A stretch of 64,000 nt of DNA, from positions 1 through 64,000 of the forward strand of contig NZ_KB898679.1 of NCBI RefSeq assembly GCF_000377765.1, in the 5' to 3' direction. The stretch comes from Gracilibacillus lacisalsi DSM 19029. Its GTDB lineage: Bacteria > Bacillota > Bacilli > Bacillales > Amphibacillaceae. The notes under the pieces were generated by a model, which was not told the origin of the DNA, made no database searches, and saw only the letters and a list, made by a program, of their open reading frames with translations. The position numbers were made by a program, and so were the translations under genes. Position 1 is the stretch's first letter, and the number at the start of each line of letters is the position of its first letter. Below, piece after piece: positions 13,713 through 50,141 of this stretch.

Positions 13713-14067
13713 TGATACATATTGCGAAGTAATGAAAGGTGAAAAGTGAGTTTCTCTCCCATTCTGATTAATAATGAGTGCCTACGCTACATTTAGTGTT
13801 CTGAATTAGGGATTGGAAATAATTTCCTAGAATATATACGCTTACTTCCCTCTCTTTTTTCCAGAACACTATTCGAAGCTGCGGAAAAATGCGACACTCC
13901 TGGGGGAACAGCACGAGCCGAAGATCCACTTTGCAAAGTGCTTTTCTTTGCAAAGTTAGCTCAAGATCGCCCCCGGAAAGGGAGTATTTTTCCGCAGCGA
14001 CGATTATCCACTCATCAAAATTCTGTAGGGAAGAGAGCACTTGCTTATGTTATTTTGCAGTTTATAG
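13713..14067 (+). mobile_element. MITE-like repeat, copy 1 (one hairpin module)
   Basis: About 355 bp bounded by degenerate forms of the family's terminal inverted repeats (TGCGAAGTAA left; TTATTTTGCAGTTTATAG right). It contains one long hairpin, module A, at 13878-13998 with outer arms GCTGCGGAAAAA/TTTTTCCGCAGC. The second module present in the other copies is missing, and flanking sequence is joined across the gap at about 13777-13800. Open frames inside are by-products of the hairpin. No transposase. About 107 bases at 13578-13712 before it hold nothing I recognise beyond the upstream region of the MBL-fold gene. Confidence 0.7.
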
Positions 14068-25625: not shown

Positions 25626-26745
25626 AATTATAAGCCTCCTCTATTGATAAAACGAGTCGATCACGATGAATGACTTCAGGACGATTACTTGCAGATTGTT
25701 CCATCGCAATTTGACTCGATTCCCCCTTGAATTTAATTAATTCATCAGATGAATAATTGACTTGCCCTTTTGCGATAACATGATCTTCAAAAACTAAATC
25801 GACAACAGCTCCAACCGGAAAATCTCCGTCTACCCATTTTATCCCTGCAGGAAGCAAACTTTTTCCTTGATAAAGAATGGCATCACTTGCCCCTTTATCA
25901 ACGTGTAGCTTCCCTGAAACATTAGAATGAAAAGCAATCCATTGTTTCTGTTTGCGGTAATTATTCGTTAAATCTTCACCAATATACGTACCATCACCTT
26001 GGTTTTGCATAATGCGGATTAATTTATCTTCGCCATCACCGGTACCTACAAATACTTTGACACCAAGTGAAAGAGCGGTTTTGGCTGCTAGAAGTTTGGA
26101 TTTCATCCCTCCAGTTCCGAATTTAGATCCCGATTCATGCTTCGTTTGCTGTAAAATTTCTGCTGATAATTTCTTAAGACGATGATATTTTTTAGCTGTT
26201 GGATCTGTTTTTGGATTTTTGTCATATAGACCATTAATATCAGTTAACATGACTAAGAAGTCTGCATGAACAAGTCCACTTACTAATGCGGATAACATGT
26301 CGTTATCACCAAACGTTAATTCATCAATTGCTACGGTGTCATTCTCATTAATAATCGGGATTACATCTCGTTTCAATAATTCCGTCAATGTCGAATAAAC
26401 ATTACTATATTGTCTCTCATTACTGAATACGTCTTTCGTTAGTAATAGCTGAGCAGTAACCATGTTATATGTTCGAAACTCATCAGTATAGGCTTGAACC
26501 AGCAAACCTTGACCAACTGCCGCTGCTGCTTGCTTTCCTGCTATAGTAACAGGTCTTGTCGGGTAACCTAAATCGAAGAAGCCAGCAGACACGGCACCAG
26601 ACGATATTAATATTACTTCGTAGTTTTGCTTTTTTAGTTTTGCAATCGCTGCGGTATGTTCTTTTAATTTAATGAGATCAAGACCACCATTTTTGTTCGT
26701 TAATGAACTGCTCCCGATCTTCACTACAATACGCTGCTTTGCCAT
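25618..26745 (-). CDS. proB: Glutamate 5-kinase
   Basis: 375 residues. Phosphorylates L-glutamate to gamma-glutamyl phosphate, the first and feedback-controlled step to proline. The amino-acid-kinase domain (1 to about 260) shows [25 protein letters not shown] and [15 protein letters not shown] domain follows (about 280-360). The start ATG has GAAGGCG upstream. First gene of proBA. The 80-base gap to the T-box terminator makes it the direct target of that riboswitch. Confidence 0.96.
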
Positions 26746-26828: not shown

Positions 26829-27083
26829 CTAAAAAAGCCCTTTTCATCCTTCATATCGTAAAGGACGAAAAGAGCCATTTCCGCGGTACCACCTTTGGTT
26901 GAACAATTGAGTAATATGTTCCACTTAACTCTTTAACGCAGAGTAACGGTTAAGTTTATGCTTAACAGTTCATAGAGTAGGTTCATTAGTATAGCGGGTG
27001 ATGGAATTTTTCAGCCTGTGAATTCCACTCTCTTGTCACCATATTCCTAACTACTGGCTCTAGTCATTACTTTTACTTATTCT
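26829..27083 (-). promoter_or_regulatory. Proline T-box leader of proBA
   Basis: A full T-box leader on the minus strand. Stem I begins near GAGCCAGTAG and has the conserved GGTGACAAGAGAGTGG region. The specifier loop reads TGAACCTAC, which places CCU (proline) at 26979-26981. The T-box bulge AAAGGTGGTACCGCGG is at about 26879-26896. A terminator of about 16 bp, with arms around CGTCCTTTA and GAAGGATGAAAAG, ends in TTTTTT. Uncharged tRNA-Pro would pair with the bulge and allow proBA transcription. The specifier was assigned by eye from its position. Confidence 0.9.
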
Positions 27084-28333: not shown

Positions 28334-29065
28334 ATGGGTTATGAACTTTCCGAACGGTTTGAAGCTGCTTTTAACCAAATACATGATAAATTATGTGATT
28401 ATGCAAATGAACATAACAATCATGCATCATTTACAGAAGTATTGACAAAAGCGAGAGTCCAACATCATGTCATTGATCAATATTATGATTTATTAAAACA
28501 ATGCAGTAAACTGCGAAATGCTATGGTACATCGGAAAATCAAGGAGGACTTCTATATTGCAGAACCACATGAAGATGTGGTCAAGGAATTGGAGCAATTG
28601 GCAGACTTACTAGCTGAACCACCAACTGCCTTGTCCATTGCTTCCAGACCAGTCGAGTATTTTGATTTTAGTTCACCAATAAAGAAATTAATGGCGAAAA
28701 TGCAAGAAAAAGAATACTCACAGTATCCCATCTATCAAGAGGATAAATTAATTGGAATGTTGACAGATGGGGATATTGCAAATTGGTTTGCTGCAAATAT
28801 TGATCAATTAAAAATTGAATTATATCAACCTATTGGAGAGATATTTCAAATTGAGAAGAAAGAACATACAAAGATTGTAGCAAAAAGTGCTACTGTAATG
28901 GATATTGAAGCAATATTCAGAGAATATTTAGAAAAAAATAAAAAAATAGAAGCAATCATAATCACGGAAACTGGTACAGCAGCAGAGCCACCAATAGGAA
29001 TCATCTCCTCATGGGATCTAATCCGACTGAAAACATACTACTTCCCACTGCTTAAACACACCTAA
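28334..29065 (+). CDS. CBS-domain protein with HEPN-like N-terminal half
   Basis: 243 residues. The N-terminal half (1 to about 95) is all-helical and carries RNAMVH (R61-H66), the R-x4-H spacing of HEPN domains, within LLKQCSKLRNAMVHRK. The C-terminal half (about 105-240) is a CBS pair: YSQYPIYQEDKLIGMLTDGD and EAIIITE...PIGIISSWDLI. CBS pairs sense adenosyl nucleotides. HEPN domains are often RNases or bind nucleotides, but many are inactive; whether this one is real needs structure comparison. AAAGGAG precedes the ATG. Alone, divergent from ilvE, with a CodY-like box in front. Confidence 0.7.
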   Translation: MGYELSERFEAAFNQIHDKLCDYANEHNNHASFTEVLTKARVQHHVIDQYYDLLKQCSKLRNAMVHRKIKEDFYIAEPHEDVVKELEQLADLLAEPPTALSIASRPVEYFDFSSPIKKLMAKMQEKEYSQYPIYQEDKLIGMLTDGDIANWFAANIDQLKIELYQPIGEIFQIEKKEHTKIVAKSATVMDIEAIFREYLEKNKKIEAIIITETGTAAEPPIGIISSWDLIRLKTYYFPLLKHT

Positions 29066-29146
29066 TACATCAGGCAGTGTCTGATCAAACCAAAGGATTA
29101 CGGCTAAGTAAATGTTACTAAAATAGCAGATAAACTGTCGTAGTTT

Positions 29147-29628
29147 CCATAAACTGCGAAGTAACTGGACATAGATTTGCTCTCTTCCGTACTGAATTTA
29201 GATGAGTGGATGATCGTCGCTGCGGAAAAATACTCCCTTTCCGGGGGCACGGCCTCAGCTAACTTGGTGAAGAAAACCACTTCACCAAGTGGATCTTCGA
29301 CTCGCGCTCTTCCCCCAGGAGTGTCGCATTTTTCCGCAGCTTAGAATCGTTTTCTGAATAAGTGACAGGAAATCCTAAGAATACCACCCCTAGTGTTCTA
29401 TTCTTACAACAATCAGAAAAGTAAAATTAGCGTAGGCAGAATACGGAGACTCCTGCGGGACAGCGAGAGCTGAAGATCCACTTTGCAAAGTGGTTTTCTT
29501 TGCAAAGTTAGCTGAAGCCGAGCCCACGGAAAGCGCAGTATTCTGCCGGAGCGGTATCCCAGCACTCCTTATGGAAGGAATGGAAGAAAGCTTCACTCCA
29601 CAAAATTTTTACTAATTCGCGGTATATA
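29147..29628 (-). mobile_element. MITE-like repeat, copy 2 (two hairpin modules, inverted orientation)
   Basis: About 480 bp, reversed relative to copies 1 and 3. The left end CCATAAACTGCGAAGTAA (29147-29164) and its flank GATTTGCTCTCTTCCG match the complement of the right end of copy 3. The right end near 29609-29628 matches the left end of copy 3 with small indels. Module A is a hairpin at 29219-29340 (outer arms GCTGCGGAAAAA/TTTTTCCGCAGC), module B at 29435-29547 (GGCAGAATAC/GTATTCTGCC). No coding capacity that I trust. It fills the space between the CBS gene and the glutamate synthase terminator. Confidence 0.75.
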
Positions 29629-29690
29629 TCTATTGTGTAAATTAAGAGTTTTTTCTTTGGTTAATATGCAGGCCTCTTTAGAAAAGGCAT

Positions 29691-29722
29691 AAAGAAAAAC
29701 CTACGACAATTCGTAGGTTTTT
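29691..29722 (-). terminator. Terminator of the glutamate synthase operon
   Basis: A perfect 11-bp stem, AAAAACCTACG with CGTAGGTTTTT, a 6-base loop and TTTTTCTTT on the minus strand, 8 bases past the stop of the small subunit gene. Confidence 0.85.
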
Positions 29723-29730
29723 CGGTTCTC

Positions 29731-31227
29731 TTACATATTTGCAACAGATGGTAAGGCAGTTTCGCCCATTAAATATTGATCAACATGGTATGCTACTTCA
29801 CGTCCTTCATTAATTGCCCATACGATAAGGCTTTGACCACGACGTGAATCTCCTGCAGCAAATACATGCTCTACATTTGTACGGAAATCACCATAAGCGG
29901 CATCTACACGGTTACGCTCTGTTTTTACATTAAACGCTTCTAGTACTGGGTGTTCTGCACCTTCAAAACCGATAGCAATTAATACTAATTGTGCAGGCCA
30001 AACTTTTTCTGTACCTGGAATTTCTTCATATACAAACATACCATTCTCATCACGAGTTTTCTTCATTTCTACTGTGTGTAATTCTTTCAATTTGCCATTC
30101 TCATCTGTCACAAATTTCTTCGTTTGAATAGAATATTGACGAATATCTTCACCATAGTATTCTTTTGCTTCTTTGTGTGCATATTCTAAGCTGAATACTT
30201 GTGGGTATGCTGGCCATTGGTTTTCTTCTGAACGTTTCATTGGCAATTGCGGGTGTTTACCGAATTGTGCAATACTATTTGCACCTTGACGAAGTGCTGT
30301 AGCGATACAGTCAGCACCCGTATCCCCACCACCAATAACAATAACGTCTTTACCTTTGGCATCTAGTTCTTCTTCCACTTCGACACTTTCATCTAATACT
30401 TTTTGAGTTGCTTTGGTTAAATAGTCCATAGCAAAACGTACACCTTTACCTTCACGACCTTCAATAGGAAGATCTCGATGTTTCTGTGCACCTGTACATA
30501 AAATCACAGAGTCATAATTTGCTTTCATTTCTTCAGCAGAAATATCTTTACCTACTTCTGTATTTAGCATAAATTCAATACCTTCATCACGAAGTAATTG
30601 AACTCGGCGTTCTACTACCCCTTTATCTAATTTCATGTTTGGAATTCCGTACGTTAAGAGACCCCCAGCGCGATCAGCGCGTTCATAAACTGTTACACTA
30701 TGTCCCGCTTGATTCAATTGGTCTGCTGCAGCTAAACCAGCTGGTCCGGAACCGACAATGGCAACTTTCTTTCCAGTGCGATGCTCCGGAACACGCGGTT
30801 CTATCCATCCTTCTTCAAAACCTTTATCAATTATCTTTTGTTCAATATTTTTGATAGTTACGGCAGGATCATTGATAGCAACCGTACAAGACCCTTCACA
30901 TGGAGCCGGACATACTCTTCCAGTAAATTCAGGAAAGTTATTTGTTTTCATTAAACGATCTAAAGCCTCTCTCCACTTTCCTTTATACACCAAATCATTC
31001 CACTCTGGGATCAGATTGTAGATAGGACAACCTGATGTTGCCCCATCAATATCCATCCCGATGTGACAGAATGGTGTACCACAATCCATACAGCGTGCTC
31101 CTTGAGTTTTTGCTACTTCATCAGAGAAAGGAGCAGAATATTCTTTCCAATCATGAATTCTTTCTAATGGATCTCGTTCATTTGCCGTTTGTCTTTCAAA
31201 CTCCATAAAACCTGTTGCTTTCCCCAT
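29731..31227 (-). CDS. gltB: Glutamate synthase small (beta) subunit
   Basis: 498 residues, the Bacillus GltB (GltD of enterics). Takes electrons from NADPH through FAD and hands them to the large subunit for glutamate synthesis. An N-terminal cysteine cluster, CMDCGTPFCH plus CPIYN and CPAPCEGSC, binds 4Fe-4S. FAD binding is at VAIVGSGPAGLAAADQL near 151-167, NADPH binding at VIVIGGGDTGADC near 290-302, and a late FAD motif is AAGDSRRGQSL. GGAGACAG precedes the ATG, 16 bases after the large subunit gene. Confidence 0.95.
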   Translation of the reverse strand: MGKATGFMEFERQTANERDPLERIHDWKEYSAPFSDEVAKTQGARCMDCGTPFCHIGMDIDGATSGCPIYNLIPEWNDLVYKGKWREALDRLMKTNNFPEFTGRVCPAPCEGSCTVAINDPAVTIKNIEQKIIDKGFEEGWIEPRVPEHRTGKKVAIVGSGPAGLAAADQLNQAGHSVTVYERADRAGGLLTYGIPNMKLDKGVVERRVQLLRDEGIEFMLNTEVGKDISAEEMKANYDSVILCTGAQKHRDLPIEGREGKGVRFAMDYLTKATQKVLDESVEVEEELDAKGKDVIVIGGGDTGADCIATALRQGANSIAQFGKHPQLPMKRSEENQWPAYPQVFSLEYAHKEAKEYYGEDIRQYSIQTKKFVTDENGKLKELHTVEMKKTRDENGMFVYEEIPGTEKVWPAQLVLIAIGFEGAEHPVLEAFNVKTERNRVDAAYGDFRTNVEHVFAAGDSRRGQSLIVWAINEGREVAYHVDQYLMGETALPSVANM

Positions 31228-49638: not shown

Positions 49639-50141
49639 CCATATACTGCGAAGTAATAAAAAGTGATAAAGTGAGGCTTTCTCCTATTCTGATTAATGAT
49701 GTGTACTCACAACCGCTCCGGCAGAATACTGCGCTTTCCGTGGCTCGGCTTCAGCTAACTTTGCAAAGAAGACCATTTTGCAAAGTGGATCTTCAGCTCT
49801 CGTGAGTCCCACAGGAGTCTCCGTATTCTGCCTCCGCTAAGCGTAGTGTTCTGATTATTAGAAGAAGAGAACTTTTAGGTATATATTCTATGAATTTCTC
49901 TTACATGATAAGAAATACACACTAAGCTGCGGAAAAATGCGACACTCCTGGGGGAACAGCGCAAGCCGAAGATCCAATTGGTGAAGTGATTTTCTTCACC
50001 AATTTAGCTGAGGCCGTACCCCCGGAAAGGGAGTGTTTTTCCGCAGCGACGAATTAGCATTTAACTTCAGAAGAATGGAAAGAAGCCACTAAAGTACGGG
50101 AAGAGAACAAATCCATGTCTAAGTTACTTCGCAATTTATGG
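49639..50141 (+). mobile_element. MITE-like repeat, copy 3 (two hairpin modules)
   Basis: 503 bp, the best preserved copy. Terminal inverted repeats are CCATATACTGCGAAGTAA (49639-49656) and TTACTTCGCAATTTATGG (50124-50141), 16 of 18 paired. Inside are module B, a hairpin at 49720-49832 with arms GGCAGAATAC/GTATTCTGCC, and module A at 49926-50047 with arms GCTGCGGAAAAA/TTTTTCCGCAGC. The modules face opposite ways. No transposase and no target-site duplication that I could see. It lies between the dynA promoter and the convergent parC terminator and explains the whole gap. Confidence 0.8.

Follow-up and report, generated by a model that had tools for sequence, protein, structure and literature searches.

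A covarying hairpin module in intergenic repeats of Gracilibacillus lacisalsi and other Bacillales

Anatomy of the repeat and its hairpin tips

The DNA analyzed here, referred to as the window, is a stretch of 64,000 nucleotides from Gracilibacillus lacisalsi DSM 19029 (contig NZ_KB898679.1). A repeat of about 470 bp with terminal inverted repeats (29153-29623, hereafter W1) is flanked by two convergent ORFs, one on the plus strand that ends at 29065 and one on the minus strand with its 3' end at 29731, and in this copy no ORF of at least 100 aa overlaps the repeat. The 122-nt stretch reported in the initial annotation (29219-29340) is one module of this repeat, that of tip copy 2 alone; copy 1 is the partner module in the same element and copy 3 is found 20.7 kb away, where a second element spans 49645-50135 and carries it in its right module (Table 1). 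Each module, about 120 nt long, is built from an outer stem and two mid stems, with a bulge of 3-4 nt, a conserved internal loop (GAAGA/GCTGA) and a tip stem that changes fast. Folded as RNA the module is more stable than expected by chance (z = -6.5), and the 541-nt stretch around the element, folded as DNA, gave z = -9.5. A K-turn reading of GAAGA/GCTGA was dropped on inspection.

Comparison of the three tips showed that three pairs differ between copies 1 and 2 and one further pair between copies 2 and 3. This bears out the original observation of at least four covarying pairs, as four paired positions differ, all of them are compensated and the arms read as they were quoted. Among the full-length T-class tips of this genome (G000 below), 44 in number, Watson-Crick pairs make up 472 of the 484 arm cells, with 5 G-T and 7 unpaired cells, and 34 of these tips are fully paired. 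Other forms of the tip were also seen: at L169, L137 and L133 it is shortened to ACTTTGCAAAGT, a loopless perfect palindrome (five such tips were counted), and L162 has near-repeats of the TTATCCTCGGAAGAGAAGACTT stretch within an element without a recognisable tip.

Table 1. Features of the repeats, and a T-box leader, in the 64,000-nt window
Feature	Position	Strand	Remarks
T-box leader	26858-27076	-	100.2 bits; just upstream of a minus-strand ORF starting at 26745
W1, left terminal inverted repeat ACTGCGAAGTAA	29153-29164	+	End likeness continues about 14 nt outward
W1, module A with its stems (outer and mid), internal loop and tip; stretch of the initial annotation	29218-29338	- (sense)	Covariance model 114.3 bits, E 8.5e-32
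W1, module A tip hairpin (copy 2)	29262-29290	-	
Tip arms, copy 2	29262-29272 / 29280-29290		ACTTGGTGAAG / CTTCACCAAGT
W1, inter-module spacer	29339-29431		In the G002 orthologue it is inverted in situ
W1, module B, divergent partner of module A	29432-29553	+ (sense)	Covariance model 119.9 bits, E 1.8e-33
W1, module B tip hairpin (copy 1)	29480-29508	+	
Tip arms, copy 1	29480-29490 / 29498-29508		ACTTTGCAAAG / CTTTGCAAAGT
W1, right terminal inverted repeat, diverged	29612-29623	-	Both ends together 3 mismatches to ACTGCGAAGTAA
Second element, left terminal inverted repeat	49645-49656	+	
Second element, left module	49714-49835	-	108.1 bits
Second element, right module	49928-50048	+	Tip copy 3 at 49976-50004
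Tip arms, copy 3	49976-49986 / 49994-50004		AATTGGTGAAG / CTTCACCAATT
Third copy (W3), single module found	13880-13999	+	90.7 bits; orthologous site examined

Copies, ends and distribution across Bacillales

Several dozen copies of the element are present in G000. The DNA search returned 68 hits there, with many elements hit twice and in both directions; the first 37 loci fetched together with the window hold 40 distinct module strings. The end sequence ACTGCGAAGTAA with at most one mismatch had 121 matches in this genome, as compared to 22 for a control pattern, and pairs of terminal inverted repeats were found in 29 of the 40 stretches fetched, with an end-to-end distance of 468-590 bp in 26 pairs and of 363, 666 and 809 bp in the remaining three. 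In being non-coding (ORF check on the W1 copy) and shorter than about 600 bp the repeat resembles a MITE. An end pair about 1-3 kb apart, such as an autonomous partner sharing the ends would have, was found at none of 100 of the 121 ACTGCGAAGTAA places. Element-free relatives of the W1 site were too diverged, and the G016 site of W3 too changed, for a reading of target duplications.

Near-identical copies at different places in G104 and G148 point to mobility. The eight of G104 have the ends GGCTCTGTTAAA, and by eye their flanking direct repeats were perfect over 9, 9, 9 and 10 bp in four, had one mismatch in two and were ambiguous in two. The six of G148 have the ends AGAGGCTGGGACA, and the repeats of G006, a genome of the same genus as G000, end in GAGACTGGGACAGAAG or close to it, perhaps the same end type as in G148. 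Since the ends in the window, in G104 and in G148 differ, the module is carried by repeats with different ends, of at least three types. The arrangement of neighbouring modules less than 600 nt apart was minus-plus, i.e. divergent, in 106 of 108 doublets, with one minus-minus and one plus-plus, though not all 108 are distinct (L002/L009, L003/L010, L005/L011, L006/L012 and L334/L358, for example, were fetched twice); the median gap of the 106 was 133 nt. By eye, an AATCAGAA-like motif lies about 25 nt to either side of many modules (e.g. L248, L222, L247), and AGC(G) recurs at the stem feet around modules.

A covariance model was made from an alignment of 53 modules that are less than 84% identical (55 were selected, L099 and L219 were left out), with a common fold of 28 pairs. 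It had matches in 235 of 299 genomes drawn from the order Bacillales, representing 95 of 116 genera; this counts presence and not copy number, since scoring was limited to 11 candidates per genome. Among the matches listed, the 16-nt core string is hosted by Sediminibacillus, Oceanobacillus, Virgibacillus, Halobacillus, Lentibacillus, Sporosarcina, Planococcus, Psychrobacillus, Terribacillus, Shouchella and Gracilibacillus. The sole match to Rfam in the window at the gathering threshold was a T-box elsewhere, no Rfam 15 family attained its threshold on the module copies of the window, and a relaxed search of 29000-29700 gave two sub-threshold matches to tsr24 (RF02577) and three others at chance level. 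The tsr24 model matches both modules weakly, with 21.6 and 20.1 bits, far below its gathering score of 50. The literature search found no description of the module and the core string in no paper; a printed description may exist.

As described in excerpts of PMC3733652 and PMC2267715, bcr1 and other bacterial MITEs share with the repeat that they are non-coding, intergenic and hairpin-forming and have terminal inverted repeats. In this comparison by description bcr1 is, going by a cited title, specific to the B. cereus group, whereas the module is order-wide, internal to the repeats and combined with ends that vary. Bhal-1 of B. halodurans, likewise compared by description and presented in the excerpt of PMC2267715 as an intergenic family of 74-bp stem-loops, could be a piece of the module.

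Covariation of the fold

Two-sided changes occurred at 23 of the 28 pairs in the structure-blind alignment of the 53 modules (A1). In an alignment of 114 distinct modules made with the model (A3) 91.8% of the cells pair, and the covariation score was 0.529 as compared to 0.161 after shuffling and 0.037-0.102 with slid partners; two-sided cells numbered 658, against 172 in the shuffles and 79-121 with slid partners. The count of pairs with two-sided changes is weak evidence, as the 24 of 28 in A3 are nearly equalled by the shuffles (mean 21.2). Because A3 was fitted to the structure, the tree-based null was run on A1, where 11 of the 28 structure pairs passed at E<0.05 under this home-made null (60 simulations and a fitted tail, applied to mosaic copies that do not follow one tree). 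Among all other column pairs a single one passed, 50-87, between mid stem and tip, and of the 17 structure pairs that failed four scored zero because they hardly vary. Covariation beyond phylogeny, on which the initial annotation had made its case depend, was thus found over the order. An excess of G-T over A-C at paired columns is expected if one single strand folds, and the ratios of 73:42, 37:20, 106:33 and 71:18 in four alignments are suggestive of such a one-strand form, with an excess that is inconsistent pair by pair in the structure-blind A1 and that the model may have promoted in A2-A4.

On balance we favour, with moderate confidence, that the module is part of a non-autonomous, REPIN/MITE-like divergent doublet, in which the folded single strand is selected and conversion homogenises the copies. 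Inside such a mobile repeat the single-stranded form of the sense strand, either RNA or ssDNA during mobility, would have to be recognised, and the fold would be kept if persistence and spread of the element need this recognition; between the two forms we lean slightly to RNA. Blocks such as tips, modules and spacers would spread by ectopic gene conversion and rarely by template switching within a hairpin. The original proposal that the folded form is selected stands as far as the fold is maintained and covaries order-wide, but the copies in the window could not alone bear the claim. Some points speak against the favoured reading. The G104 copies with a single module have the kind of ends and flanking repeats that go with double-stranded DNA transposition, for which a hairpin is unneeded, the W1 element has no promoter-like site, G000 has no Y1 transposase, and the conversion is deduced from shared haplotypes.

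Transcription signals, transposases and block turnover

Were the module a terminator or an RNA-stability element, read-through transcripts would stop or gain protection there and insertions would be harmless to the neighbours. The position of W1 between convergent ORFs agrees with this, as do three terminator-like sites (0.7 expected), of which two are CCACTT....AAGTGG-TTTTC on the sense strands of both modules. However, the alternative hairpin CCACTT....AAGTGG is confined to T-class tips and absent from the GC-rich class, and the complete stem lacks a downstream T run in the window copies; we find this explanation unlikely. A sigma-70 scan of the W1 element gave no promoter-like site, with 0.8 expected. 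Upstream of 272 modules a perfect TATAAT was found 31 times as compared to 17.6 times in shuffled sequence, matches to at least five of the six letters showed no excess (127 versus 126 shuffled), and 20 are located at -23, a pattern that may be caused by shared spacer descent.

Equally unlikely, in our judgement, is that the module serves as the ssDNA target of an HUH (Y1/RAYT) transposase in a true REPIN/REPtron system. In excerpts of PMC3733652 the REP/REPIN-BIME repeats with their RAYT are likewise palindromic, present in many copies and in inverted pairs, and have an imperfect stem, and in REP pairing up of the loop-edge residues abolished RAYT cleavage. The module is about 120 nt long as compared to 20-40 nt for REP, and its repeats end in inverted repeats; doublets as in REPIN/RAYT systems are found, whereas G000 has no Y1 gene flanked by the repeats. 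The invariant GTAG tag of REPINs is absent, the foot of B-type stems having either GTAGGC or GGAGGC. Y1 transposases were found in 20 of 26 genomes searched, and there was no Y1_Tnp match in G000, G002, G003, G004, G011 and G030, although repeats abound in G000; with no match there, a Y1 transposase as the partner in this genome was rejected.

In favour of a Y1 target speaks G006, where 8 of 12 Y1 places lie between two minus-plus modules, three have one module and one has none. At eleven places of this genome (L312, 1167-2039, and L364-L373) a decayed IS200-like Y1 gene sits between or beside modules, giving a composite that looks like a REPtron. Likeness to free IS200-like copies extends over only about 525 bp, inside the spacer, and the Y1 places of G006 would be best explained by a nested IS200 that was amplified with its host repeat, which we favour over a functional partnership of Y1 and module. 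Among 20 other Y1 loci only L308 has a module, more than 1 kb away.

Less likely again is that the pattern reflects mere block transfer, i.e. that historic paired alleles were spread by ectopic conversion or re-insertion and that covariation within a genome is uninformative on the fold. By comparison of flanks an element or remnant was found in both genomes for 15 orthologous pairs of G000 and G009 and 13 of G000 and G002, at 22 distinct G000 sites; 27 of these 28 pairs were viewed (L161/L144 was left out), and pairs with only one matching flank were left out. Of the nine positions over 120 nt at which module B of W1 differs between G000 and G009, eight are in the tip, namely three compensated pairs and two loop bases, and one lies outside it, and the G009 tip with its loop is present in 9 of 44 G000 tips and 2 of 24 G009 tips (own site included). 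At L038/L132 the change is nearly confined to the tip, where two pairs are compensated and one loop base differs, besides a small difference upstream, and the G002 arms are found in 5 of 24 G002 tips and none of the 44 G000 tips. L005/L098 has one compensated pair and the remainder of the module also differs. At other sites, e.g. L035/L072, whole modules or spacers differ where the flanks and one half agree, and in the G002 orthologue of W1 (L079) the element interior aligns mainly reversed and the right flank forward. Unchanged or nearly unchanged tips occur as well (the right tip of L035/L072 and the arms of L016/L149).

The tips of one genome belong to a few alleles, and from these shared haplotypes we infer ectopic conversion and recombination among the copies as the source of the block differences; a new insertion at the same site is less likely. 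The copies in the window do not represent independent events, as the initial annotation had assumed: their differences seem to spread mostly by overwriting among copies and not base by base, and at the orthologous sites tips are replaced as blocks of arms plus loop with haplotypes that are present in other copies. Mutual information in 92 tips of three genomes was up to 0.63 bits between non-partner arm columns, so that some linkage is also present among tip columns, in line with block transfer. Partner columns nevertheless covary most within the block, with 0.92, 0.85 and 0.76 bits for the three variable pairs and at most 0.25 bits between arm and loop, and the covariation persists between genera with different tips, which argues against block transfer as the whole explanation.

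At six places in three genomes the 3' half of the hairpin has been copied onto the 5' half, so that the complement of its 3' side takes the place of the 5' side of the internal loop and the perfect palindrome is extended (L006/L012, L042, L028/L166 and L156 in G000, L051 in G012 and L209 in Halobacillus andaensis). The opposite direction, 5' half onto 3' half, gave none with a pattern of equal length (a first mirrored pattern was stricter), a one-way bias of six to none. A seventh place, L008/L013, is a fused element in which the 3' halves of two modules are joined at the tip. The extensions resemble template switching, which excerpts of PMC8794818 propose as a source of compensatory changes in RNA genes, likewise with multi-base compensatory changes and extended stems; in this repeat it would apparently contribute less than block transfer and conservation. 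A purely mutational origin, where template switching or quasi-palindrome correction copies one half onto the other and the fold is unselected, would explain these places but is the least likely of the alternatives, as most GAAGA/GCTGA letters are kept in at least 90% of the 53 diverse modules, where correction would erase the loop, and as loop columns track the arms only weakly. Gene conversion within each hairpin, the competing cause of matching arms named in the initial annotation, thus accounts for part of the pattern, given the block replacement and the six half-copying places.

To return to the selected fold, we tentatively put forward a further possibility, that the module is an unnamed structured nucleic acid, a shared working part or RNA/ssDNA handle, that has been captured by several miniature-transposon families with different ends. 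The bulge, the tandem G-A loop and the one-strand tolerance of G-T might then be the RNA-like motifs of this handle. As a caution, covariation among the copies of one genome is not the same as evidence from independent events. The orthologous sites constitute a natural experiment on the origin of compensatory changes, with conversion, template switching and selection as the alternatives. If the proposed reading is true, a large number of intergenic repeats throughout a bacterial order would be linked by one fold.
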